From the NCBI GenBank assembly GCA_019745155.1, contig JAIETM010000012.1, positions 186,001 to 250,000 on the forward strand: DNA of 64,000 bases, in the 5' to 3' direction. Of the stretch, positions 1 through 11,425 are shown in pieces; position 1 is the first letter of the stretch, and each line of letters starts with the position of its first letter. The notes below the pieces were generated by a model. The model was given only the letters and a program-made list of their open reading frames with translations. It was not told the DNA's origin and did not search any database. A program made the position numbers and the translations under genes. This stretch comes from Chitinophagaceae bacterium. GTDB lineage: Bacteria > Bacteroidota > Bacteroidia > Chitinophagales > Chitinophagaceae.

Positions 1-1
1 G

Positions 2-295
2 CTCAATAAAGAAGAAATATCTTTTATTGCAGCTAAGTTTCACTACAGTTTAATTGATCTTGTTAAAGAAATTGCAGAAGAAAACAACAGTACTAGCATT
101 GCTTGTAGTGGGGGTGTTTTTCAAAATGCCGTTTTAGTAGATTTAATGATACATTATTTGGGAAAAAATTATTCAGTTTATTTTCATCAACAATTATCAC
201 CCAACGATGAAAATATATCTTTTGGGCAATTGATACATCAACAACAGCAAATAAAAATTAATCATCATAAAAAAGAAAAAATAATATGTGTTTAG
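2..295 (+). CDS. hypF: Carbamoyltransferase HypF, C-terminal end (partial)
   Basis: This is the last 97 codons of HypF; the rest lies before the window. HypF makes the cyanide ligands of the [NiFe] active site from carbamoyl phosphate, passing a carbamoyl group to the C-terminal cysteine of HypE. The fragment carries the SGGVFQN motif typical of the Kae1-like C-terminal domain of HypF, followed by a QLSPNDENISFGQ stretch that matches the usual LPPNDGGISLGQ end of the family. The gene overlaps hypC by 10 bases, which points to one transcript. The last residues (HHKKEKIICV) are a short basic tail. The call is firm because of the motif and the following hypC, hypD and hypE. Confidence 0.9.
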   Translation, partial: LNKEEISFIAAKFHYSLIDLVKEIAEENNSTSIACSGGVFQNAVLVDLMIHYLGKNYSVYFHQQLSPNDENISFGQLIHQQQQIKINHHKKEKIICV

Positions 296-573
296 CAATT
301 CCGGGAAAAATAGAAAGTATCAGCACCATTCATGATGGATTGGTACGAATGGCAAAAGTGTCCTTTGGAGGTATCATCAAAGAGGCAAGTTTAGAAATGT
401 TACCATCGGCCGATGTTGGTGACTATGTACTGGTACATGTAGGTGTAGCCATAAGTAAAATAGACGAAGAAGAAGCAGCCAAAAGTTTTGAGTTTCTCAA
501 AGAGATTGGCGAAATAGACGAGCTTATTGAACATACCCAAGTGGATAACAATAGAAACCAAAATATAAATTAA
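286..573 (+). CDS. hypC: Hydrogenase maturation chaperone HypC
   Basis: A 95-aa protein starting MCLAIPGKI, the signature of the HypC/HupF family; Cys2, exposed after removal of Met1, binds the Fe(CN)2CO precursor. HypC works with HypD as scaffold for iron-ligand assembly and then carries the iron to the apo large subunit. It overlaps the end of hypF by 10 bases and is followed 5 bases later by hypD. The acidic tail after about residue 70 is slightly longer than in minimal HypC proteins. A specialised paralogue (HupF type) cannot be excluded, but only one copy is seen here. Confidence 0.95.
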   Translation: MCLAIPGKIESISTIHDGLVRMAKVSFGGIIKEASLEMLPSADVGDYVLVHVGVAISKIDEEEAAKSFEFLKEIGEIDELIEHTQVDNNRNQNIN

Positions 574-578
574 GTAAT

Positions 579-1685
579 ATGAAATATTTAAGTGAATACA
601 GAGATGCAGATGTTGTAAATAAATATCTGGATGAACTTCATGAAATAACAACTAAGCCCTGGACAATAATGGAAGTGTGTGGTGGGCAAACCCATAGCTT
701 AGTGAAAAATGGCATCATTGGCTTGTTGCCAAAAAACATTACAATGGTGCACGGTCCTGGTTGTCCGGTATGCGTTACACCATTGCAGCTAATTGATAAA
801 GCAGTGTATTTGGCAGAAGTACAAAAAGTAATTTTGTGCAGCTATGGCGATATGTTACGAGTGCCTGGCAGTAAAAAAAGTTTACTGGAAGCTAAAGCCA
901 ATGGGGCTGATGTAAGAATACTGTATTCACCTTTGGAAGCGGTAAAATTAGCAAGCGAAAATCCTGATAAAGAAGTTGTATTTTTTGCAGTTGGGTTTGA
1001 AACTACAGCACCAGCCAACGCCCTGAGTGTATTGCATGCACAAAGGCAAGGCATTACAAATTATTCTATTCTTACTAGCCATGTGCTTGTGCCACCGGCC
1101 ATTGATGCCCTTGCAAGTGATGAAGCCAATGTGGTACAGGGTTTTTTAGCAGCAGGTCATGTATGCACCATTATGGGTATTAGTGAATACTATCCATTAG
1201 TAGAAAAATACAAAATGCCTATTGTGGTTACGGGCTTTGAACCTGTAGATTTAATGCAAGGTATTACCATGCTTATTAAGCAATTAGAAAACGGTGAATA
1301 TAAATTGCAGAATCAGTACAGTCGTGTGGTGCAGCCCGAAGGAAATAAAGATGCCAGAAGTGTAATTGAGCAAGTATTTGAAGTAAGAGAAAGAGAATGG
1401 AGAGGTATTGGCACTATACCTATTAGTGGTTACGAAGTAAAACCGGAGATGAAAAATTTTGATGCCAATGTAAAGTTCAATATTCAAATTGAAGCACAAC
1501 CCAATAATAATGAATGTATAGCTGGCGAAATATTAAGGGGCATTAAAAAACCAATGGAGTGTCCACAGTTTGGTAAAAAATGTACGCCTTTACACCCTAT
1601 TGGTGCACCGATGGTAAGCAGTGAAGGGGCTTGTGCGGCATATTATCATTTTGCAAATATCAATGCAGAACACGAAACTGTATAA
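579..1685 (+). CDS. hypD: Hydrogenase iron-ligand assembly protein HypD
   Basis: A 368-aa protein of normal HypD length. Seen motifs: CGGQTH at residues 34-39, GPGCPVC at 59-65, GFETTAP around 139-145, and a C-terminal set of cysteines that in the family holds a [4Fe-4S] cluster. HypD with HypC holds the iron while CN and CO ligands are added. It sits between hypC and hypE with short spacing, as in most hyp operons. Nothing looks damaged. Confidence 0.96.
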   Translation: MKYLSEYRDADVVNKYLDELHEITTKPWTIMEVCGGQTHSLVKNGIIGLLPKNITMVHGPGCPVCVTPLQLIDKAVYLAEVQKVILCSYGDMLRVPGSKKSLLEAKANGADVRILYSPLEAVKLASENPDKEVVFFAVGFETTAPANALSVLHAQRQGITNYSILTSHVLVPPAIDALASDEANVVQGFLAAGHVCTIMGISEYYPLVEKYKMPIVVTGFEPVDLMQGITMLIKQLENGEYKLQNQYSRVVQPEGNKDARSVIEQVFEVREREWRGIGTIPISGYEVKPEMKNFDANVKFNIQIEAQPNNNECIAGEILRGIKKPMECPQFGKKCTPLHPIGAPMVSSEGACAAYYHFANINAEHETV

Positions 1686-1704
1686 AAATAATTTATATAA
1701 AGTA

Positions 1705-2763
1705 ATGAGCAATTCAATTAGCTTTTCATCACTCAGTTGCCCAATGCCCAAATTTGATTTTGATACCATTAATATGGGGCATGGTAGTGGTGGTATATTA
1801 ACGCATCAACTATTGAATAGTGGTGTTTTTTCTATCTTACAAAATGACATGCTCAATCAAAAACACGATGGAGCAATTTTTACAGCCAATGGAAAGTTGG
1901 CTTTTAGTACAGATAGTTATGTAATCCATCCATTATTTTTCCCTGGTGGAAATATTGGGGAATTAGCTGTAAATGGCACTGTAAATGATTTGGCAATGTG
2001 TGGAGCTATGGCAAAATACTTATCGCTTTCATTTATTATTGAAGAAGGGCTTGCCATGAAAGAATTTTGGGAAATATTAGTAAGTATCAAAAAAGCTTGC
2101 GACAAAGCCAATGTGCAAGTAGTAACAGGCGATACAAAAGTGGTGGAAAAAGGCAAAGGTGATAAAATTTTTATCAATACTTCTGGCATAGGAATCATGC
2201 ATCCACATGCCAATATTGCACTATCCAATATTAAAGAAGGCGATGCTGTTATACTGAGTGGCTATATTGCAGACCATGGTGTATGCATCATGAGTAAGAG
2301 AGAAGGATTAGAATTTGAAACTGATGTAAAAAGCGATACGGTTAATCTGAATTTTACCATAGAGCATTTATTAAATGAATTTGGTAACGAAATACATTTC
2401 TTAAGAGATGCCACAAGAGGTGGTGTAGCCAGTGTGTTAAACGAAATAGCCAAAGATGGCAACTTAGGCGTAGATATTTTGGAAAAAGAAATACCTGTAA
2501 AACCTCAAGTGAGTGGTGCTTGCGAAATGCTAGGTCTCGACCCATTGTATGTAGCCAACGAGGGGAAATTTATGATGGTTGTAGATGCTGCAAAGACTCA
2601 AGATGTATTGAACGCATTAAGAAAAGATACCAATGGCACTGATGCCACCATTATTGGCCATATTACAAAAGAGCATATTGGGCAAGTAATATTGCAAAGC
2701 CGTATTGGTGGAAAAAGAGTGGTGAATATGTTGCCGGGAGAGCAATTACCCAGGATATGCTAG
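1705..2763 (+). CDS. hypE: Hydrogenase cyanide-forming protein HypE
   Basis: A 352-aa protein of the PurM/AIR-synthase-like fold. It dehydrates the thiocarbamate on its C-terminal cysteine, using ATP, to give thiocyanate that supplies CN to iron. The end reads LPRIC, the family's conserved PRIC tail with the acceptor cysteine. The MGHGSGG motif lies near the N terminus and VNDLAMCGA follows the first metal/ATP segment. An earlier in-frame start at 1621 would overlap hypD by 65 bases; ATG 1705, 19 bases after the hypD stop, is preferred because the family homology starts just after it. It is co-directional with the NHL gene 23 bases downstream. Confidence 0.95.
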   Translation: MSNSISFSSLSCPMPKFDFDTINMGHGSGGILTHQLLNSGVFSILQNDMLNQKHDGAIFTANGKLAFSTDSYVIHPLFFPGGNIGELAVNGTVNDLAMCGAMAKYLSLSFIIEEGLAMKEFWEILVSIKKACDKANVQVVTGDTKVVEKGKGDKIFINTSGIGIMHPHANIALSNIKEGDAVILSGYIADHGVCIMSKREGLEFETDVKSDTVNLNFTIEHLLNEFGNEIHFLRDATRGGVASVLNEIAKDGNLGVDILEKEIPVKPQVSGACEMLGLDPLYVANEGKFMMVVDAAKTQDVLNALRKDTNGTDATIIGHITKEHIGQVILQSRIGGKRVVNMLPGEQLPRIC

Positions 2764-2786
2764 ATTAGAAATTACAAAAGCAAATA

Positions 2787-3848
2787 ATGAAGTTAGTTCA
2801 TACTTTTTATGGCGAAGAAAGTAATGCAATGCTTGCACCTCGTGGTGTATGTTTGAGCAATGATATTTTAGCTGTAAGTGATACCGGACAAAATAGGGTT
2901 TTGATTTGGAATAATATTTTTGACTATAAGCATAAAAAAGCAACAGTAAAACTAGAAGCCAGCACTGAACAACAACTGCAAAAAGGAACTTGCAACGCCA
3001 ACAGTTTGCAGTATCCAAGTGGCATATGGACAAATGGAGAAATATTAATTATTGCAGATGCATGGAACCACCGTGTGCTTATTTGGAAAACATTTCCAAC
3101 AAAAAATAACCAAGCCGCCGATGTAGTCATTGGGCAACCCAATTTCGATAACAACCAACCTAACATAACTGGTTTGGGTAATCTGCCTACTGCACAATCG
3201 CTTTACTGGCCTTATGGAGTATACAGTAACGGTACTGAATTATGGATAGCCGATACGGGCAATAGGAGAGTATTGTATTTTTCAGAAATACCTGCAACAA
3301 ATTTTGCAGTAGCCAATGCAGTAATTGGACAAGCGACGTTCAACGAAAAAGATTACGACCCTGCAAATGCCGTATGGCCATACAGTGTTAAGATAAGTAA
3401 TAAAGGAGAAATGCTTATTGCAGATACGCAATATTATAGAGTACTATATTGGAATAACTGGAAAGATTCATTAACAGTACCTGCCAAAATAATTTTTGGA
3501 CAAGCAGATATGCAAAGCAACGGACAAAATCAGTACCAACTAAAACCAAATGCAAAAACACTAAATTGGTGTTACGATGTTTGCTTTTGGAATAATGGTA
3601 TAGCTATAGCAGATACGGGCAATAGTCGTGTGGTAATACACAACCAAATTCCAACAGAAAATAATGCACTTGCTAATTTTCAATTGGGACAGCCCAATTT
3701 TGAAACCCATGGCGAAACTTCACTAAGCTTTACCTCAAAAATTGAAAATGAAATGTATTGGCCATTTGCCGTAAATACCGACAATAATGTTTTGGTATTA
3801 GCAGATACCGGTAATCACAGGATATTAATTTACAAAAATTTAGAATGA
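2787..3848 (+). CDS. NHL-repeat beta-propeller protein of the hydrogenase locus
   Basis: A 353-aa protein built of about six NHL-type repeats, each with a core like ADTGNHRVLIW (seen as SDTGQNRVLIW, ADAWNHRVLIW, ADTGNRRVLYF, ADTQYYRVLYW, ADTGNSRVVIH, ADTGNHRILIY). Between repeats a VIGQPNF-like strand recurs. No signal peptide is evident, so a cytoplasmic six-bladed propeller is expected. It follows hypE by 23 bases and overlaps the transporter gene by 4. NHL proteins are recalled as neighbours of high-affinity group 1 hydrogenases; a role as scaffold or assembly factor is inference. Fold confidence is high, function is unknown. Confidence 0.8.
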   Translation: MKLVHTFYGEESNAMLAPRGVCLSNDILAVSDTGQNRVLIWNNIFDYKHKKATVKLEASTEQQLQKGTCNANSLQYPSGIWTNGEILIIADAWNHRVLIWKTFPTKNNQAADVVIGQPNFDNNQPNITGLGNLPTAQSLYWPYGVYSNGTELWIADTGNRRVLYFSEIPATNFAVANAVIGQATFNEKDYDPANAVWPYSVKISNKGEMLIADTQYYRVLYWNNWKDSLTVPAKIIFGQADMQSNGQNQYQLKPNAKTLNWCYDVCFWNNGIAIADTGNSRVVIHNQIPTENNALANFQLGQPNFETHGETSLSFTSKIENEMYWPFAVNTDNNVLVLADTGNHRILIYKNLE

Positions 3849-4531
3849 CAGCAGCATTAATTTTATCAGCCTTAGGTATTGGTTTTGCTCACAGTTTTGA
3901 AACTGACCATTTATTAGCAGTGAGTAATATTGTAAGCAGTCGCAACAAGTTAATTAAAGCCATAAAAGACGGTTTATTTTGGGGGCTTGGGCATACAAGC
4001 ACCATATTAATAGTTTCAATATTTTTTTTAACATTAAAGTACCAGGTCAACGAAAAAATTTTTTCATACTTTGAAGCTATTGTGGGTGTTATGCTTGTTC
4101 TCCTTGGTACATATAGATTAATTCAGTTAGCAAAATCGTACAGAATGCCAATTGCTGAAATACTTCCCCATACACATGCACATCATGCTGATACACATAG
4201 TCATACCCATATTGTTGCCAGGCCTGAATTAGAAATGAAAGGCTTTGCTCACTTATCATCTTATTTTATAGGAACTGTGCATGGCTTAGCCGGCAGTGGT
4301 TCCGTTATTATTGGTGTATTAGCAACTATGGAAAGTATTTTTTCAGGCTATATGTATTTATTAGTATTTGGTATAGGCAGTATTGGTGGCATGATATTAG
4401 CAGCAACTACTTTTGGCCTACCTTTTACACAGAAGTTGATTAGCAATAAAATTTTTCAGGCAATTTTAATTGTAGCTTCTTCATTGCTTTCTATTTATTT
4501 TGGAATTAAAATAATTTTTGAACATATATGA
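3845..4531 (+). CDS. Nickel/cobalt transporter-like membrane protein (NiCoT/UreH-like)
   Basis: A 228-aa protein with about six hydrophobic segments. The first carries H16-x4-D21-H22, the HX4DH signature of NiCoT-family nickel permeases; a second GTVHGLAGSGS segment lies near residue 144. A cytoplasmic or periplasmic loop at residues 109-122 is very rich in histidine (HTHAHHADTHSHTH), a likely metal-buffering loop. The gene overlaps the NHL gene by 4 bases and the next small gene by 4 (ATGA), so translation is probably coupled. Within a hydrogenase operon, nickel supply for the active site is the natural role. Export rather than import cannot be ruled out from sequence. Confidence 0.82.
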   Translation: MTAALILSALGIGFAHSFETDHLLAVSNIVSSRNKLIKAIKDGLFWGLGHTSTILIVSIFFLTLKYQVNEKIFSYFEAIVGVMLVLLGTYRLIQLAKSYRMPIAEILPHTHAHHADTHSHTHIVARPELEMKGFAHLSSYFIGTVHGLAGSGSVIIGVLATMESIFSGYMYLLVFGIGSIGGMILAATTFGLPFTQKLISNKIFQAILIVASSLLSIYFGIKIIFEHI

Positions 4532-4728
4532 CAGCAAAAGAACTAGTGATTGACTGTTTACGCTATTATAGTATTGAAATAGTAAATGTCGATGATAATA
4601 TCATTACTATCGGAAGAAATTATAAGATTGAAGTAGAAGCAAATGGACTTTATAAACTAATGAGCGATGGACAAGTAATAGCCCCTTTCGACGATGTAGA
4701 TGAACTATGCAGATTTGTTTTATTGTAA
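4528..4728 (+). CDS. Small protein of unknown function (66 aa) in the hydrogenase operon
   Basis: Not recognised. The start codon overlaps the stop of the nickel transporter (ATGA), which supports a real, translationally coupled gene. The protein is acidic, lacks membrane segments and has a predicted alternating beta pattern (IEIVNVDDNIITIGRNYKIEVE). Its length and context would suit a small accessory factor for hydrogenase maturation, but no motif supports a specific role. The downstream nuclease gene begins 15 bases later. Confidence 0.6.
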   Translation: MTAKELVIDCLRYYSIEIVNVDDNIITIGRNYKIEVEANGLYKLMSDGQVIAPFDDVDELCRFVLL

Positions 4729-4743
4729 AATAAAAAATCATTG

Positions 4744-5298
4744 ATGGTAGAAGTATATTTAATAGCATTGAATAGTAGCGAAAGTTCGCCTGGCAATTTT
4801 GTAGTGGTATTAGAAGAGATTATCAGCAAAAAACGTATGGCTATTACTATTGGTGGTTATGAAGCACAAGCTATTGCCATTTCTTTAGAACGAATGCAAC
4901 TGCCCCGACCAATGCTTCACGATATCTTTAAAAATACTATTGCCGAACTTGGTGGTACATTAATATAAGTACATATTTATGCCATCGTGAACCAAATGTA
5001 TCATGCTTATTTGATTATAAAGACCAAAGAAGCCAATGAAATTAAAATAGATGCAAGAGCAAGTGATGCATTAGCAATGGCTGTTAGGTATGATTGTCCA
5101 ATATATGTAGATACTGAGGTATTTGAAAAATCTGTAATTACCGAAGTTAACTCTAATATAAACAGTATTCGTGGTTCTTTGGCCGACTATAGCTTAGAAG
5201 AACTAAAGTTGCTCCTACAAAATATTTTAGCTAAAGAAGATTACGAAAGTGCTGGCAGAATAAGAGATATGATTAAAAAGCGAAAGGAAAATTTATGA
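4744..5298 (+). pseudogene. Bifunctional nuclease (BFN/DUF151) plus UVR-domain protein, broken by an in-frame TAA
   Basis: Two open frames in the same reading phase, 4744-4968 and from 4987 on, together make one normal BFN-UVR protein of about 184 codons. The first part has the BFN core (ITIGGYEAQAIAISLERMQ, then LPRPMLHDIFKN). The second has ARASDALAMAVRYDCPIYV and ends in a UVR motif (LLQNILAKEDYESAGRIRDMI). The join would read TLI-stop-VHIYAIVNQMYHAYLI; the TAA at 4966-4968 stands where related proteins usually have a charged residue. No frameshift is needed: one base change (for example GAA to TAA) explains it. It may be a true nonsense mutation, a sequencing error, or two separately translated pieces (GTG at 4987). 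Start could also be TTG 4741. Confidence 0.8.
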
Positions 5299-5590
5299 AT
5301 CACCACTTCATATAATGTGTCACTATTGTCCGACTAAAAATTAGCCAAAATGACTTGAAACCCTTATCTGGTAAGCATTACAAGCTAATTTGAAGATGTT
5401 TCAAAAACCAGGGTAGTTGCCCATGTTCTTAAACCGGCTACAACTCAATACTGGCAAGGGTTTGGTAGAAAAAGTTACAGTTTTAGCCAGACAACAATGA
5501 TAATGTGTATAATTTATAATCAAATCTAATTGACAACGTTTTTGTATAATAATTACTTCATTTTTTACCTTTGAAAATAAAAAATAAGTA
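5299..5590. other. Non-coding gap with likely promoter for the first TetR gene
   Basis: A 292-base AT-rich stretch with no convincing reading frame on either strand. It separates the hyp/accessory genes from the regulator and structural genes, so it probably divides two transcripts. No clear terminator hairpin with a T run was seen after the UVR gene. The right end holds a Bacteroidota-type promoter, listed separately. The segment near 5320-5400 may be an old insertion remnant, but no terminal repeat or transposase fragment could be identified. Confidence 0.5.
5541..5573 (+). promoter_or_regulatory. Bacteroidota-type promoter before the first TetR gene
   Basis: A TTTG at 5541-5544 and TACCTTTG at 5566-5573 are separated by 21 bases, matching the -33 TTG / -7 TAnnTTTG pattern of the primary sigma factor in this phylum. 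Transcription would start near 5578-5580, leaving a very short leader before the TTG start at 5591. Confidence 0.55.
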
Positions 5591-6205
5591 TTGAAGTCAA
5601 CAAAGCAACATATATTAAACAATGCCTTAAAACTCTTTAATAACAAAGGTGTAGTAAATGTTAGACTACAACATATTGCCGATGAAGCATTTGTTAGTAT
5701 TGGACATTTGGCGTATCACTTCAAAAATAAGGATGCAATTGTAGGTGCTTTGTACGATGACCTGCAACAGCAACAGCAACAATTACTAAACGAACACAGA
5801 ACAGTACCGCTTTTTACTGATATAGATGCTTTTTTAAGAGCCTATTATGCGCTACAGAATAAGTATATTTTTTTCTATTTAGATAGCTTAGAAATTACAA
5901 GGGCATATGCCGATATCGCAAAAAAACATACTCAACACATTCAATGGCAGCGTACCCTTCTTAATGTAATGCTGCAATTTAATATTTCTAGAGGTTCGCT
6001 AATCCCTATAAAAGAAACCGGCGTTACTCAACTCAGTACCAACCTACGTATGCAACTGGATAATTGGCGATATGCCAACAAAGTGGAAGGTGTACAAAAT
6101 GATACGGTAGAATCTTTTTTAAATGCAATATGGGCATCAATCTCTCCCTACTTTACGCCAATGGGCATAGCTGAATATAAAATGTTGGTTACGGAGCCAC
6201 AATAA
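5591..6205 (+). CDS. TetR/AcrR-family transcriptional regulator (first copy)
   Basis: A 204-aa protein with a TetR helix-turn-helix in the first 55 residues (LQHIADEAFVSIGHLAYHFKNKDAIVGALY). The rest is a divergent all-helical ligand or dimer domain that was not recognised. The start is taken as TTG at 5591, since the DNA-binding domain begins within a few residues (MKSTKQHI) and no ATG is available there. It is a paralogue of the regulator at 6617 (same STKxxI start and HIAD/QIAD, YHxKNKDAIV motif). Lying between the hyp genes and the hydrogenase structural genes, it is a good candidate for control of the locus; this is inference from position. Confidence 0.85.
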   Translation: MKSTKQHILNNALKLFNNKGVVNVRLQHIADEAFVSIGHLAYHFKNKDAIVGALYDDLQQQQQQLLNEHRTVPLFTDIDAFLRAYYALQNKYIFFYLDSLEITRAYADIAKKHTQHIQWQRTLLNVMLQFNISRGSLIPIKETGVTQLSTNLRMQLDNWRYANKVEGVQNDTVESFLNAIWASISPYFTPMGIAEYKMLVTEPQ

Positions 6206-6257
6206 GTCTATTTTTTTAGTAGTCATAAATTGTCGTAAAATTGTAGAACTTTTAAAT

Positions 6258-6617
6258 ATGAGAGTATTTGTGCATATTGACGACGCTGCCTATTTGGCGA
6301 TGCTTGGGCATATTGAACGCAGTGCACAAACTGATACTGCAGGCTTGCAAAGTGATATTAGTTTTTATAATGAAGACTTCTGGTTGCAAGATTCTGCAGT
6401 TATAGAAAATATAGAATACCGTAATGGCGAATGGAACGTATTTTTAGTTTTTGCTCACCAAGCTAAATTATTAAAACTAATAAAAAGGAAAATAAAGAAT
6501 TACAGTTGCCCCAAAAAAGCACAACTAACCGCTTATTATATGCGAAAGTTGGCGGCTAAAGATCAAAGAGGAACGATTATTGTAAAAACTGATAATCTCA
6601 CTATAAATTTTAGCTAA
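6258..6617 (+). CDS. Unknown protein (119 aa) between two TetR regulators
   Basis: Not recognised. It starts MRVFVHIDDAAYLAMLGHIE and its stop overlaps the start of the second TetR gene by one base (TAATG), so the two are probably co-translated. The protein is soluble, with a basic middle (KLIKRKIKNY) and no membrane segment. The fixed place between two paralogous regulators suggests a linked duplication or a small regulatory module, but no function can be given. Confidence 0.6.
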   Translation: MRVFVHIDDAAYLAMLGHIERSAQTDTAGLQSDISFYNEDFWLQDSAVIENIEYRNGEWNVFLVFAHQAKLLKLIKRKIKNYSCPKKAQLTAYYMRKLAAKDQRGTIIVKTDNLTINFS

Positions 6618-7222
6618 TGCGGTCTACTAAAGAGAATATTATATCTGTAAGCAAACAATTGTTTCACGAATTTGGCATTGCAAATACCCGTTTACAGCAA
6701 ATAGCAGATGCTGCTGAAATTAGCGTAGGCAACTTGGTCTACCACTATAAAAATAAAGATGCTATAGTAGAAGCAGTATATAATAACTTATTTACAGAGC
6801 TGACTGCAATTTTAAGTCAATACGCATTTAATTACGAACTACATGGTTTTGACAGACTATTTAGTGCTATGTACCGTTTTTATGACGCTAATAAGCTTGC
6901 TTTTAATAACCAATGGGAGATACACCGAAACTATACACAAATACAGCAAGAGTGGCTTACGACTTCAAACAAAATAACGCTACAAATAAAAAAAAGACTG
7001 GAATATTGTGCTGCCAATGATTTAATTAATGATGAAAGTGGAAAAACCAATTTTGATACATTGTCTCAATCCATTTCATTAGTTATGCATAATTGGATGC
7101 CACAGCAGTGTCTTCGGGGGAAAGTACATACAGAGCTACTGTATAAGAGAGCATTATGGGGCATTATATTGCCACTATTAACCCAAAAAGGGAAAACAGC
7201 TCTCGAAAGTAAAATTGGATAA
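6617..7222 (+). CDS. TetR/AcrR-family transcriptional regulator (second copy)
   Basis: A 201-aa protein with an N-terminal TetR helix-turn-helix (LQQIADAAEISVGNLVYHYKNKDAIVEAVY) and an unrecognised helical C-terminal domain. It clearly resembles the regulator at 5591 over the first 55 residues and has about the same length. It starts on the last base of the preceding 119-aa gene and ends 97 bases before the small hydrogenase subunit. An AT-rich inverted repeat lies just after its stop (7226-7249). It probably controls hydrogenase expression; the inducing signal is unknown. Confidence 0.86.
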   Translation: MRSTKENIISVSKQLFHEFGIANTRLQQIADAAEISVGNLVYHYKNKDAIVEAVYNNLFTELTAILSQYAFNYELHGFDRLFSAMYRFYDANKLAFNNQWEIHRNYTQIQQEWLTTSNKITLQIKKRLEYCAANDLINDESGKTNFDTLSQSISLVMHNWMPQQCLRGKVHTELLYKRALWGIILPLLTQKGKTALESKIG

Positions 7223-7225
7223 TTA

Positions 7226-7249
7226 AAAATAGAAGAAAATTTCTATTTT
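7226..7249. repeat. Perfect 9-base inverted repeat before the hydrogenase subunit genes
   Basis: AAAATAGAA at 7226-7234 pairs with TTCTATTTT at 7241-7249 across a 6-base spacer. It lies directly after the TetR stop codon and about 70 bases before the start of the small subunit. It could be a TetR operator or a weak transcription attenuator. The all-AT character makes chance occurrence in this AT-rich block possible. Confidence 0.45.
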
Positions 7250-7319
7250 AGAAAATAATTACTAAATTACGTCAGGAAATACCCCAATTTCGTAATAAAA
7301 TCTTTAAAAACGATTGCTT

Positions 7320-8300
7320 ATGGCTAATGTACTATGGTTACAGGGTGGTGCCTGCAGTGGCAACACAATGTCCTTTCTTAACGCAGAAGAGCCCACTGTA
7401 GTGGAGCTTATTGTTGATTTTGGTGTAAACATTTTGTGGCATCCTTCAGTTGGGTTAGAAATTGGCGCACAGGTGGAGCATCTACTAAAAGATATCATTG
7501 CGGGTAAAGTGCAAATGGACATTTTAGTTTATGAAGGTTCAATTATTGAGGGGCCAAATGGCACAGGTACTATGAACTATTTTTGCGACCGGCCAATGAA
7601 GGATTGGGTGAAGGAACTAAGTGCAGTTGCTGGCTATGTGGTAGCAATAGGTGATTGTGCTACCTACGGCGGTATTCCAGCAGTACCGCCTAACCCAAGT
7701 GAAAGCACCGGTATGCAATTCCATAAAAAACAAAAAGGTGGATTTTTAGGAGCTAATTATGTTAGTAAAGGGGGCTTGCCTGTAATTAATATTCCGGGTT
7801 GCCCTGCACACCCTGATTGGATTACACAAATATTAGTAGCCATAGCTACAGGCCGTATTAAAGATGTATTAATAGACGAATACCACAGGCCAAAAACATT
7901 TTTTACCGACTTTGTACAAACAGGTTGCCCCAATGCAATAAGTTTTGCGCAAAAAGTAGATGGTGGATTTGGCAAAAGAGGCGGTTGTTTGTTTTACGAG
8001 GTAGGTTGCCGTGGACCAATGACCAGAGCAAGCTGCAATCGTATATTGTGGAATAGAACCAGCAGTAAAACCAGAGCCAATCATCCCTGCTTAGGCTGTA
8101 CAGAACCAGGATTCCCTCATCATGATTTGGCAAAAGGAAGTGTATTTAAAACAATGAAATATCTTGGATTCTTACCTAAAGATGTGCCAACAGGTGTTTC
8201 CAAGCTGGGTTATTACACCAGAGCTGGTGTAGAAAAAGTGATGGGAAAAGTGGAAAAAGTATTTGGTGTAGATCAAGAGCATTTTGAAACAAGTAAATAA
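7320..8300 (+). CDS. [NiFe]-hydrogenase small subunit, group 1h-like high-affinity type
   Basis: A 326-aa iron-sulfur subunit passing electrons from the NiFe site. The start WLQGGACSGNTMSFLNAEEP matches group 1h and related subunits from memory. It has no Tat leader and no C-terminal membrane anchor, unlike group 1a-1d enzymes. Cysteines seen: C12 (GGACSGN, in place of the usual CxxC), C113 (GDCATYGG), C161 (PGCPAHP), C203, C223 and C230 (GGCLFYEVGC), C239, C257 and C260 (CLGC). The position aligned with the usual distal-cluster histidine reads Q200. In the structurally known relative an aspartate completes the proximal cluster. ATG 7320 is chosen over a TTG two codons earlier. The large subunit follows 27 bases later. 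Confidence 0.93.
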   Translation: MANVLWLQGGACSGNTMSFLNAEEPTVVELIVDFGVNILWHPSVGLEIGAQVEHLLKDIIAGKVQMDILVYEGSIIEGPNGTGTMNYFCDRPMKDWVKELSAVAGYVVAIGDCATYGGIPAVPPNPSESTGMQFHKKQKGGFLGANYVSKGGLPVINIPGCPAHPDWITQILVAIATGRIKDVLIDEYHRPKTFFTDFVQTGCPNAISFAQKVDGGFGKRGGCLFYEVGCRGPMTRASCNRILWNRTSSKTRANHPCLGCTEPGFPHHDLAKGSVFKTMKYLGFLPKDVPTGVSKLGYYTRAGVEKVMGKVEKVFGVDQEHFETSK

Positions 8301-8327
8301 ATTTATTTTAAAAAAAAGATTACAAAT

Positions 8328-9929
8328 ATGTCAACAATAAAAGAATTAAATATATCACCAGTTGGTCGTGTGGAAGGCGACTTAGATGTGAAAGTTTATA
8401 TAGAAAATGGTGTAGTTACCAGAGCGCATACACAGGCTGCTATGTTCCGTGGCTTTGAGAAAATAATGGAAGGTAAAGACCCTCAGAGTGGGTTGATTGT
8501 AACACCTCGTATTTGCGGTATTTGCGGTGGTTCTCATTTGTATTGTGCAAGTAGTGCATTAGATACCATTTATAAAACCAAATTGCCACCTAATGCACTT
8601 TTATTGAGAGCTCTGGGCCAAGCTGCTGAAACCATACAAAGTATACCTCGCTGGTTTTATGCCATCTTCGCTACAGATATGGCCAATAAAAAATTTGCCA
8701 ACAAAAAATTATATGACGAAGTAGTAAAAAGATTTGCTGCATATGTGGGCACATCATTTCAAAGTGGTGTTACTGCAAGCGGAAGGCCTGTTGAAGTGTA
8801 TGCTTTATTTGGTGGACAATGGCCGCACAGTAGTTATATGGTACCTGGTGGCGTAATGTGTGCCCCTACCTTAAAGGACATTACCAGAGCCCACGCCATA
8901 ATGAATCAATTTAGAAACGATTGGTTAGAAACCACTTGGCTGGGCTGTAGTATTGAGCGATACCGCAAAGTACAAAGCTGGGATGACCTTATGGCTTGGG
9001 TAGATGAAAACGATAGTCAACGCAATAGTGATTTAGGCTTATTTATTAGAGCTTCATTAGAGTTTGGCTTAGATAAATTTGGCCAAGGTTGCGGAAATTA
9101 TGTGGCTTATGGTACTTATTTGCATAAGGATAAATATAATAACCCTACTGTAGAAGGCAGAAACGATGCATTGATAAGCCCAAGTGGATTTTACAATCAT
9201 CACACTAAGAAGTATAGTCCTTTCAATCATTTGGATATTAAAGAACATGTAACACATAGCTGGTATGCTGACCAGGGCGGCGCTTTACACCCTTGGGAAG
9301 AACCACTACCTACACCTGTTACTTCTCAAAATTTAGAGCACACAAATTTCAATGAAAAATATAGCTGGGCTAAAGCACCTCGTTATACAGGTCTTGCAGC
9401 AGAAGCTGGTCCATTAAGCCGTTGTTTAATGTATGCAAATCCTGCTAATTTACCTCACCAAACTAAGGATTTCCTTATTAAAGATGCTATGGACAAAATG
9501 GGTCCAAGTGTTTTCTTAAGAACTTTAGCAAGAGTTCACGAAGCACCAATTCTATATCAATTAATTGACCAATGGTTAAAAGAAATTGATTTGGATGGTG
9601 AATTTTACATCAAGCCAGAGGAAAAAGATGGTAAAGGTTTTGGAGCTACAGAGGCTGCCCGTGGTGCATTAGCACATTGGGTAGAAATTAAAGACGGTGT
9701 AATTAAAAACTACCAAGTGATGGCACCTACTACATGGAATGTTGGACCAAACGACGATGGCGGTAAGAGCGGGCCAATTGAAGCGGCATTAGAAGGTATT
9801 GAGATAGAAGATGCAAATGATCCTGTAGAAGTAGGTATGGTGGCTCGAAGCTTTGACAGTTGCCTGGTATGTACCGTACATGCTCACGACGCCAAAACTG
9901 GCAAGGAGTTATCGAAGTTTAAGCTTTAA
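8328..9929 (+). CDS. [NiFe]-hydrogenase large (catalytic) subunit, group 1h-like
   Basis: A 533-aa subunit that holds the NiFe site. The N-terminal L1 motif is RICGICGGSH (C63, C66, H70); the C-terminal L2 motif is DSCLVCTVH (C512, C515, H518), with serine where most families have proline. Fifteen residues follow H518 (AHDAKTGKELSKFKL), so a maturation protease should trim the end after nickel insertion; no such protease gene is in the window. The N terminus PVGRVEGDLDV is typical. No electron-transfer partner (Rieske-like or HucE/HhyE-type) lies next to it, so how electrons reach the quinone pool is not visible here. The transcript probably ends at the terminator 30 bases downstream. Confidence 0.95.
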   Translation: MSTIKELNISPVGRVEGDLDVKVYIENGVVTRAHTQAAMFRGFEKIMEGKDPQSGLIVTPRICGICGGSHLYCASSALDTIYKTKLPPNALLLRALGQAAETIQSIPRWFYAIFATDMANKKFANKKLYDEVVKRFAAYVGTSFQSGVTASGRPVEVYALFGGQWPHSSYMVPGGVMCAPTLKDITRAHAIMNQFRNDWLETTWLGCSIERYRKVQSWDDLMAWVDENDSQRNSDLGLFIRASLEFGLDKFGQGCGNYVAYGTYLHKDKYNNPTVEGRNDALISPSGFYNHHTKKYSPFNHLDIKEHVTHSWYADQGGALHPWEEPLPTPVTSQNLEHTNFNEKYSWAKAPRYTGLAAEAGPLSRCLMYANPANLPHQTKDFLIKDAMDKMGPSVFLRTLARVHEAPILYQLIDQWLKEIDLDGEFYIKPEEKDGKGFGATEAARGALAHWVEIKDGVIKNYQVMAPTTWNVGPNDDGGKSGPIEAALEGIEIEDANDPVEVGMVARSFDSCLVCTVHAHDAKTGKELSKFKL

Positions 9930-9960
9930 GATATCTATAAGATAGTTTTATTTTAAAAAG

Positions 9961-9995
9961 AACTGCCTCATGTTAAATCTTGAGGCAGTTTTTTG
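9961..9995. terminator. Strong intrinsic terminator after the hydrogenase genes
   Basis: A perfect 10-base stem, AACTGCCTCA (9961-9970) and TGAGGCAGTT (9981-9990), with a 10-base loop and T run to 9995. The A-rich left flank allows it to serve the converging mnmE transcript as well. Confidence 0.9.
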
Positions 9996-10051
9996 TTTAA
10001 ACGTATTGCAAAATATTATTTTATACAATACCTTGATTCTTTTAGGAATAA

Positions 10052-11425
10052 CTACTTTCCGATACAAAACTTACTGAAGATATAATCCAACTGATCTTCA
10101 TGTGTAATCTCACCTGTGATCTCACCAAGAAAGTGTAGCGCACGTCTGATATCTAATGCCAGCAGATCGCCGGGTAATTGATCATCCAAACCCTGTAAAA
10201 CTTCTTTCAATGCAGCATACAATTTCTTCAATGCATCCAGATGGCGCGCATTTGTAACAACCGTATCATCCATACTTACAGAACCGCCCAATACTGTATT
10301 CACCAAAGCTTGCTTCAAAGTATCAATGCCTGTATTGCTTTTTGCTGCTATAGGCAATACTGATTGAGAATAGGAATTGGCTTGTATATCAGACTTGTTT
10401 GCCACGAGCAGGTACTGAATTGACTTTGATTCCAGATCTTCAACAACCGCATCTAACTCAACTTGTGTAGTTTCTGCAGCATCAAACAGATAGATCACCA
10501 GATCTGCTTGCTGCATTTTTTCTAAGCTCTTCTCTACACCAATGGATTCAATAATATCGCTGGTATGTTGTCTGATACCTGCTGTATCAATCAATCTGAA
10601 TAGTACCCCATCAATATTCAATACCTCTTCAATGGTATCCCGTGTGGTGCCTGCAATATCACTCACAATTGCTCTTTGCTCATTTAATAACGCATTCAGC
10701 AAAGTTGATTTACCTGCATTGGGTTTACCAATGATGGCAACACTTACCCCTTGCTTAATCACATTACCCAACTTGAATGAATCGATTAACTGCGCAGTTG
10801 TTGTACTTAGCTGTTGAATTAATTGGTACAGTTGTGTACGATCTGCAAATGCCACATCTTCCTGAGAGAAATCCAACTCCAATTCAATTAAGGCAGAGAA
10901 CTGAATAAGTTGGTCACGCAAAGCAGCCAATGTATTGGAGAAACCACCACGCATGTGTTTGATGGCATGTTGTCTACTTGCTTCTGTATTACTGGCAATC
11001 AAATCAGCCACCGCCTCGGCCTGCGCCAAATCCATTTTTCCTTTCAAAAAAGCACGTTGGGTAAATTCACCCGGCTTGGCCATCCTAGCACCACCATCAA
11101 TAATGGCCTGCATTACTTGCTCCTGTACAAAGGGTGAACCATGACAACTGATTTCTACGACATCTTCACCTGTATAAGATTTAGGTGATTTATATAAAGA
11201 CACCACCACTTCATCCAACAAAAGATTGTCCTTTTTTAGCAAACCCACATGCAAAGTATGCGATGCTTGTGCAGCAAGATTCTTGGAAGGGAAAAGTGTA
11301 TTCACAATATCAATGGCTTTTGAACCACTTACACGCAATACACCAATGGCACCAATGCCCGGAGGTGTAGCCAGTGCTACAATTGTATCATCCCATCCAC
11401 CAAGTTTGTGTGCCAAGCTGTTCAT
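10052..11425 (-). CDS. mnmE: tRNA uridine-5-carboxymethylaminomethyl modification GTPase MnmE
   Basis: A 457-aa GTPase which, with MnmG, modifies U34 of certain tRNAs. The N-terminal folate-binding domain starts TIVALATPPGIGAIGVLRVSG. The G domain sits inside a helical domain and shows GKPNAGKST, TTRDT, DTAG and NKSD. The last residues FCIGK match the conserved C-terminal C(I/L/V)GK motif with its essential cysteine. Length is normal. A -7 box (TACTTTTG, 11431-11438 on this strand) lies 5 bases before the ATG, so the message may be almost leaderless. Confidence 0.97.
   Translation of the reverse strand: MNSLAHKLGGWDDTIVALATPPGIGAIGVLRVSGSKAIDIVNTLFPSKNLAAQASHTLHVGLLKKDNLLLDEVVVSLYKSPKSYTGEDVVEISCHGSPFVQEQVMQAIIDGGARMAKPGEFTQRAFLKGKMDLAQAEAVADLIASNTEASRQHAIKHMRGGFSNTLAALRDQLIQFSALIELELDFSQEDVAFADRTQLYQLIQQLSTTTAQLIDSFKLGNVIKQGVSVAIIGKPNAGKSTLLNALLNEQRAIVSDIAGTTRDTIEEVLNIDGVLFRLIDTAGIRQHTSDIIESIGVEKSLEKMQQADLVIYLFDAAETTQVELDAVVEDLESKSIQYLLVANKSDIQANSYSQSVLPIAAKSNTGIDTLKQALVNTVLGGSVSMDDTVVTNARHLDALKKLYAALKEVLQGLDDQLPGDLLALDIRRALHFLGEITGEITHEDQLDYIFSKFCIGK

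Follow-up and report, generated by a model that had tools for sequence, protein, structure and literature searches.

A group 2a (Huc-type) hydrogenase gene cluster inserted at mnmE in a Bacteroidota genome

Hydrogenase subunits and their class

The window analysed here is a stretch of 64,000 nucleotides (bases 186001–250000 of contig C4) from a Bacteroidota genome (3.17 Mb, 27 contigs). Its left part carries a cluster of genes around a [NiFe]-hydrogenase, and the two subunit genes are as follows.

7320–8300, + strand: hucS, small subunit (326 aa; 461 bits to HucS of Mycobacterium smegmatis)
8328–9929, + strand: hucL, large subunit, with a 15-residue tail past the last ligand motif (533 aa; 659 bits to M. 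smegmatis HucL; also placed by the tree)

Both open reading frames (ORFs) are intact and contain the motifs WLQGGACSGNTMSFLNAEEP, RICGICGGSH and DSCLVCTVH. The Pfam matches (Oxidored_q6, NiFe_hyd_SSU_C, and NiFeSe_Hases at 278 bits) are all above their cut-offs, and thus the hydrogenase genes are not a chance finding. The small subunit starts with MANVLWLQGG, and neither a twin-arginine translocation (Tat) signal nor a hydrophobic tail is visible by eye in the sequence. In these respects a preliminary description of the locus was correct, since it reported two subunits with the L1 and L2 motifs and without Tat signal or membrane anchor.

The same description assigned the enzyme to group 1h or the related 1l. 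However, in the PDB both subunits match M. smegmatis Huc best (7utd, 7uus), with near end-to-end alignments at 659 bits for the large and 461 bits for the small subunit. The group 1h structure of Cupriavidus necator (5aa5) scored 122 and 99.5 bits, respectively. The phylogeny proposed in the preliminary description was carried out for the large subunit. A quick maximum-likelihood tree of 101 large subunits (three empty rows dropped) was calculated with support from the Shimodaira–Hasegawa-like approximate likelihood ratio test (SH-aLRT). The window sequence lies within a fork of 90 group 2a rows (support 99), grouped with Sediminibacterium sp. Gen4 and one metagenome-assembled genome (MAG) (window–L054–L055 fork, 100), and the four 1h rows form a separate group (support 100). 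The sampled rows include no confirmed 1l sequence, and no cyanobacterial, 2e or 2f sequence of known label. As the program flagged long branches among the outgroup rows, the placement also leaned on identity, at 59% to M. intracellulare Huc and 74–82% to six Bacteroidota copies. As judged from the PDB scores, the tree and the residues described below, the hydrogenase is a member of group 2a (Huc-type).

Islam et al. (2020; PMC7784904) described a radiation within group 2a that is associated with Bacteroidota and comprises 34 genomes of this phylum. The enzyme thus adds one more member to a known group, and falls in one clade with the copies known from Runella, Hymenobacter and further Bacteroidota. 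Among 395 drawn Bacteroidota genomes, five (its own included) encode a full-length relative with at least 75% identity, so that the enzyme is thinly spread. Two of the near copies are plasmid-borne (Runella slithyformis and Hymenobacter psoromatis).

Ligands, quinone site and gas channel

For comparison, 87 loci were mapped: that of the window, six plasmid-borne loci and 80 loci from a scan of named genomes (the best 80 of 417 relatives). Seventy-eight are of the Bacteroidota type, two of which (L064 and L095) bear no Bacteroidota name; the others are L019–L022, L126, L128, L129, L132 and L133. The residue counts of the small subunit refer to 87 Bacteroidota-type rows, which include second copies of some loci and L126, L128 and L129 from other phyla.

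The two Cys-x-x-Cys motifs that ligate the NiFe site are complete (Cys63, Cys66, Cys512 and Cys515). The ligand pattern of the small subunit, for which group 2a would have three [3Fe-4S] clusters, agrees with that of Huc. The site of the proximal cluster reads ACSGNT. Its Asn is present in 86 of the 87 rows (the remaining row has a gap) and in all eight other 2a rows, while Asp is found in both 1h rows tested and Cys in the 1d and 2b rows. ACSGNT is thus the group 2a form of this site, and the preliminary description was mistaken in taking the motifs that it quoted as marks of 1h. Two tyrosines of HucS, Tyr229 and Tyr301, bind menaquinone in the solved structure of Huc (PMC10017518). According to the PDB alignment, the equivalents here are Tyr228 and Tyr300, and Tyr is kept at these positions in 85 and 79 of the 87 rows, respectively. 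Among the gas-channel residues of HucL (E15, I64 and L112; PMC10017518), the first two are kept in the window as Glu16 and Ile65. With its ligand and quinone residues and two of the three channel residues kept, the enzyme could work like Huc.

The residues also bear on the alternative that this is a high-affinity hydrogenase of group 1h or 1l induced by starvation. General features are held in common, namely the missing Tat signal and the L2 motif DSCLVCTVH, the likeness of which to 1h was pointed out in the preliminary description. Group 1h (C. necator HofGK; Hhy) belongs to the same superfamily and has similar L1 and L2 motifs. Group 1h is nevertheless ruled out by the PDB scores, by its position in a clade apart and by the residues: Asn stands in place of Asp, and Glu16 in place of Val. 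The neighbouring genes of 1h enzymes differ as well, e.g. DUF5947 and DUF6084. HydDB cannot separate 1l from 1h (PMC11519504). Since 1l is so near 1h, 1l is unlikely too, in a comparison that holds no confirmed 1l sequences. The large subunit of C. necator 1h, used as query against the 395 Bacteroidota genomes (E 1e-60) with no positive control, gave no match. Taken as a whole, a 1h or 1l identity is extremely improbable.

HucM and HucE

The M. intracellulare DUF1641 protein, which is HucM as checked against the solved subunit, and the NifU–Rieske fusion HucE were searched for in the mapped loci. HucM is present in five, and HucE in six, of the nine loci that are not of the Bacteroidota type. 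Neither was found in the 78 Bacteroidota-type loci, nor in the 60 of these whose flanks are sufficient for counts of gene content; with the filters off, the best match had an E-value of 0.31. HucM and HucE were not found in the rest of the window's own genome either, and a HucM homologue too remote for these searches is possible.

Whole genomes were searched under 13 handles, two of which (G236 and G449) appear to be one genome, giving ten Bacteroidota genomes and two controls. The HucE fusion was detected in both controls and in none of the ten, whose matches correspond to the NifU part or the Rieske part in separate genes. DUF1641 was not found in eight of the ten. The two having it are G450 and G052; in the latter the gene is located about 72 kb from the hydrogenase, beside an oxidoreductase-like ORF (named from reading the sequence).

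Absence of HucE is not claimed here as unreported. Islam et al. (2019; PMC6883350) reported that HucE and HhyE were missing in 9.5% of the species with a hydrogenase, and Bacteroidota are not named in the portion of the main text examined. HucM is dispensable for activity on gels (PMC10017518). The locus of Sphingopyxis alaskensis, which is from a strain that draws H2 down to sub-atmospheric levels (PMC10305171), contains HucE and gave no HucM match in the 22.7 of 28.5 kb of plasmid examined. HucM is thus no condition for group 2a.

Candidates for a HucM substitute were sought by clustering the unassigned ORFs of the Bacteroidota-type loci, and no family occurred in more than eight loci. The eight-locus families are large secreted-looking proteins and a protein of about 289 aa with hydrophobic stretches and no Pfam match (e.g. 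L080:13096–13965). A six-locus family is HypX-like, with formyltransferase and enoyl-CoA hydratase parts (e.g. L079:16694–18415). Two small proteins of the cluster were considered and rejected: the T-type protein also occurs in four HucM-bearing loci (L019, L021, L132 and L133), and the R-type protein is positioned beside TetR.

Gene cluster

The cluster extends from C4:180279 (protease) to C4:195929 (end of hucL). In order, it contains the genes for protease, h102a, T-type small protein, TPR protein, hypA, hypB, hypF, hypC, hypD and hypE; these are followed by the genes for NHL protein, UreH-like protein, h66 and the interrupted bifunctional nuclease, then by TetR1, the R-type small protein and TetR2, and finally by hucS and hucL. 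The genes within the window upstream of the regulators are as follows.

1–295, + strand: 3' end of hypF (ORF 9989–12295 of L004; likeness to HypF of the plasmid loci)
286–573, + strand: hypC (Pfam HupF_HypC, 91.6 bits)
579–1685, + strand: hypD (TIGR00075, 503 bits)
1702–2763, + strand: hypE (TIGR02124, 431 bits)
2787–3848, + strand: NHL-repeat protein (Pfam NHL, 71.7 bits)
3845–4531, + strand: possible UreH or nickel-transporter-type membrane protein (weak matches below cut-off: DsbD_2, 23.7 bits; TIGR00802, 24.2 bits)
4528–4728, + strand: h66, small conserved protein (in 17 of the 78 loci; no Pfam or NCBIfam match)
4744–5298, + strand: bifunctional nuclease gene (BFN domain) with an in-frame TAA at 4966–4968, one frame on both sides of the stop

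The plasmid relatives of the UreH-like protein are annotated as urease accessory protein. The stop in the nuclease gene is either that of a pseudogene or a sequencing error. The protease, h102a and TPR genes are present in all 60 Bacteroidota-type loci with enough flank, and the NHL gene in 53 of the 78 and in all six HucE-bearing loci.

In cyanobacteria, the genes between hupSL and hyp number five and encode two small proteins, a TPR, a NifU-like and an NHL protein (PMC3126725); a similar set is found here, without the NifU-like gene. The preliminary description stated that the neighbours differ from those of actinobacterial loci, which is correct in part. Both kinds of locus share the protease, TPR and NHL genes, one small-protein gene and hyp genes (the mycobacterial set being that seen in M. 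intracellulare). The M. smegmatis partners HucM and HucE are missing, whereas TetR genes with a palindrome, h66 and the bifunctional nuclease are added in some of the loci.

TetR pair and palindrome

The following features are located directly upstream of hucS.

5591–6205, + strand: TetR1 regulator (Pfam TetR_N, 37.9 bits)
6258–6617, + strand: R-type small protein (119 aa; no Pfam match; paralogous to the T-type protein found next to TPR)
6617–7222, + strand: TetR2 regulator (Pfam TetR_N, 40.9 bits; 32% identical to TetR1)
7229–7246, no strand: possible second, degenerate operator (three mismatches; seen by eye, and not returned at two mismatches)
7248–7265, no strand: proposed TetR operator TTAGAAAATAATTACTAA (one mismatch; one of two such sites in the genome)

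TetR genes occur in 47 of the 78 Bacteroidota-type loci, commonly in the order TetR, R-type, TetR ahead of hucS. The R-/T-type family comprises 91 ORFs, 44 beside TetR and 46 beside TPR, and mycobacteria also have the T-type. A model of the R-type protein (predicted local distance difference test, pLDDT, 80.5; predicted template-modelling score, pTM, 0.56) gave a best PDB fold match at E 0.07, and no sequence match was obtained.

The 300 bp upstream of hucS were scanned for TTAGAAA-N(3 to 5)-TTTCTAA with up to two mismatches; two of the 78 loci were unusable. A palindrome of the TTAGAAA-N4-TTTCTAA type was detected in 37 of the 47 TetR-positive loci (1.75 expected from Markov-shuffled sequences), exact in 32 and with two or more sites in 28. 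In the TetR-negative loci it was detected in five of 29 (1.95 expected). Because the motif was derived from the same loci, whole-genome scans are a fairer test. At up to one mismatch, the window genome contains the motif at exactly two places, 7248–7265 before hucS and C4:180244–180261, and the latter is 66 bases upstream of the ATG of the protease gene that opens the cluster. Seven further TetR-positive genomes contain 18 exact copies, and 15 of these fall within the fetched hydrogenase loci (10 before hucS, four before hypA and one before the R-type gene), against a control total of two. No palindrome was found in the Huc-less congeners G001 and G002, nor in a TetR-negative Zobellia genome.

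According to the co-occurrence and the genome-wide specificity, the two TetR proteins most likely control expression via the palindromes at the two units of the cluster. A literature search of limited extent met no description of the palindrome, which is not claimed as unpublished. In mycobacteria the direct regulators of huc are unresolved (PMC13098282). The TetR pair and palindrome are a concrete candidate switch.

Insertion at mnmE

The left part of the window belongs to an insertion of about 24.8 kb, and its right border is described by three features.

1–10069, no strand: window part of the insertion (C4:171288–196069, the remainder lying left of the window; recognised from empty site, repeat and GC content)
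10056–10069, no strand: right copy of the 14-bp direct repeat TTTCCGATACAAAA (left copy at C4:171274)
10052–11425, − strand: mnmE (trmE), the 3' end of which is the insertion site (protein 93% identical in G002)

In the congener G002, the counterparts of C4:155354–171291 and C4:196053–200014 are adjacent (88% and 90% identical, respectively) with an overlap of 20 bases, and thus represent the empty site. No group 2a match was found in G002. The direct repeats at C4:171274 and C4:196056 are located within the last mnmE codons, and the longest match in 100 shuffles was 12 bases. The guanine–cytosine (GC) content is 36–38% inside the insertion versus 43% outside. These results show that the cluster came into the genome through insertion at the mnmE 3' end, the mechanism of which we infer.

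Besides the cluster, the insertion carries a type I-like methylase with a specificity gene and an AbiEi/AbiEii pair (L004:559–5871, i.e. C4:174559–179871), a 507-aa protein without Pfam match and two ORFs of 157 and 278 aa at the left end. SGI1-type islands (PMC7449626, PMC8409611) occupy this same target, the mnmE (trmE) 3' end, and likewise carry restriction–modification genes. In the present case the host is a Bacteroidota, the cargo a hydrogenase, and no integrase, xis or mob gene was recognised; kinship is not claimed. As a general site for these clusters mnmE was rejected, since among 82 loci the full gene is found in L105 and L120 only, several kb from the cluster, with a weak partial match in L123. 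The empty site in the congener shows one route by which H2 use would have been gained recently in a Bacteroidota genus.

Proposed function

The full explanation, which we hold with good confidence, is that of a cytosolic Huc-type group 2a enzyme with a TetR switch, which entered at mnmE and would take up H2 at low levels under aerobic conditions. The NiFe centre of HucL, whose ligand motifs are complete, would cleave H2. By analogy with the Huc structure, the electrons would travel along three iron–sulphur clusters in HucS, whose ligands resemble those of Huc, and reach menaquinone at a site where both contact tyrosines are kept. HypA–F, the protease, the TPR and NHL proteins and the small proteins may act in maturation, as their homologues suggest. 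Since no recognisable HucM stalk or HucE is present, the link to the membrane must differ from that of M. smegmatis. The two TetR proteins would govern expression by binding the palindromes upstream of both units; in the gene order of the window, the protease probably opens its own unit, and a palindrome sits there.

The likeliest role is aerobic uptake of low H2 alongside growth on organic carbon. Group 2a enzymes in several phyla oxidise atmospheric H2 (PMC7784904, PMC10305171), and for this reason the broader idea of the preliminary description, an enzyme of a kind able to use atmospheric H2, survives, although the group was named wrongly. Its suggestion of trace-H2 use during starvation is weak, since expression of group 2a, in contrast to 1h, is tied mainly to growth (PMC7784904). 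The use of trace H2 as such is plausible.

Several points weigh against this explanation. Affinity for H2 cannot be inferred from sequence. The tyrosine at the Tyr301 position is absent in eight of the 87 rows, and Leu112 at the O2 bottleneck of Huc is replaced by Ile (Ile113) here and likewise in 81 of 82 Bacteroidota-type rows. The palindrome is missing in 10 of the 47 TetR-positive loci and present in five of the 29 TetR-negative ones, and in the window genome a reversed control pattern occurs at seven places versus two for the motif (up to one mismatch). No integrase was recognised in the insertion when five left-arm proteins were compared with Pfam, the ORFs of 157 and 278 aa standing outside that comparison. 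The bifunctional nuclease gene is intact in all 16 relatives having it and interrupted here. M. smegmatis oxidises less H2 when HucE is lost, and needs this protein for full H2 consumption (PMC6883350); therefore, a form without HucE may fail or need an unknown partner. In addition, the genome holds a group 1d-like uptake hydrogenase on contig C3 (L005:1387–12285), with a Tat-type start, the extra cysteines of C. necator HoxK, a cytochrome b subunit, its own hyp genes and a protease. The congener G002 has a similar match.

These points agree in part with another explanation, in which the group 2a enzyme does not consume trace H2 (being used for local H2 recycling, of lower affinity, or inactive without HucE), and the 1d-like enzyme on C3 does the work. 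The absence of HucE, the interrupted nuclease gene and the second uptake-type enzyme with its own accessory genes fit this idea, and group 2a is also the H2-recycling enzyme of cyanobacteria (PMC7784904). On the other hand, intact genes are present for both subunits, the Hyp proteins and the protease, an operator-like site is kept before hucSL and before the first gene of the cluster, and the gene set is conserved across the 78 loci. Furthermore, tested 2a enzymes elsewhere, including that of S. alaskensis, reach sub-atmospheric H2 (PMC7784904, PMC10305171). We therefore regard it as unlikely, and aerobic low-H2 uptake by the Huc-type enzyme is preferred.

Of the enzymes that run on atmospheric H2, Huc is the best understood: HucM accounts for its coupling to quinone, and HucE has been proposed as a relay. 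As neither protein was found across a large clade, this clade offers a natural test of what is needed. The enzyme is of a known kind, and is set apart as a variant by the lack of these two partners, by the candidate switch and by the insertion.

Arrangement in related loci

The blocks of the cluster occur in three orders, which are rotations of one ring. In the first (L054 and others), hucSL is followed by protease–TPR and hyp. In the second (Runella plasmid and others), hyp is followed by hucSL and protease–TPR; in Runella, hypABF and extra genes are located further left. In the third, that of the window, protease–TPR is followed by hyp and hucSL. In 71 of the 78 Bacteroidota-type loci hucL leads on to the protease gene, whereas the window cluster ends on hucL. 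A circular intermediate is not claimed because non-rotational arrangements also occur: the hyp block is inverted in L057 and L071–L073, and one cluster holds two hucS–hucL pairs in L117 and L121. Promoter duplication as the source of the rotated order was not supported, as the two promoter regions align only at the operator (score 23 versus a shuffled maximum of 27).

A wider proposal would combine these features: a stripped-down Bacteroidota Huc without HucM and HucE, which hands electrons to menaquinone with HucS docked directly on the membrane or by way of a further partner, in many cases with a repressor pair on the palindrome where the transcription units begin, and mobile among Bacteroidota as an island or plasmid cassette with rotated blocks. 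We put this forward tentatively, as somewhat less than an even chance.

A second hucS paralogue (start like MTNLIWLKGGACSGN) is located just upstream of hucS–hucL in nine loci, mostly of Saprospiraceae/Lewinella (L088, L101, L104, L111, L113, L116, L123, L130 and L131), giving two small subunits per large one; in L131 the paralogue is split into two ORFs. Bacteroidota-like 2a copies are also found in MAGs labelled Rickettsiales, Thalassobius, Alphaproteobacteria and Gemmatimonadaceae (L064, L126, L128 and L129), by transfer or wrong binning. In the Runella plasmid (L017:4376–12410), genes for a TonB receptor, an ExbB-type channel and a CobN-like protein lie between hypF and hypC, and may serve metal import.

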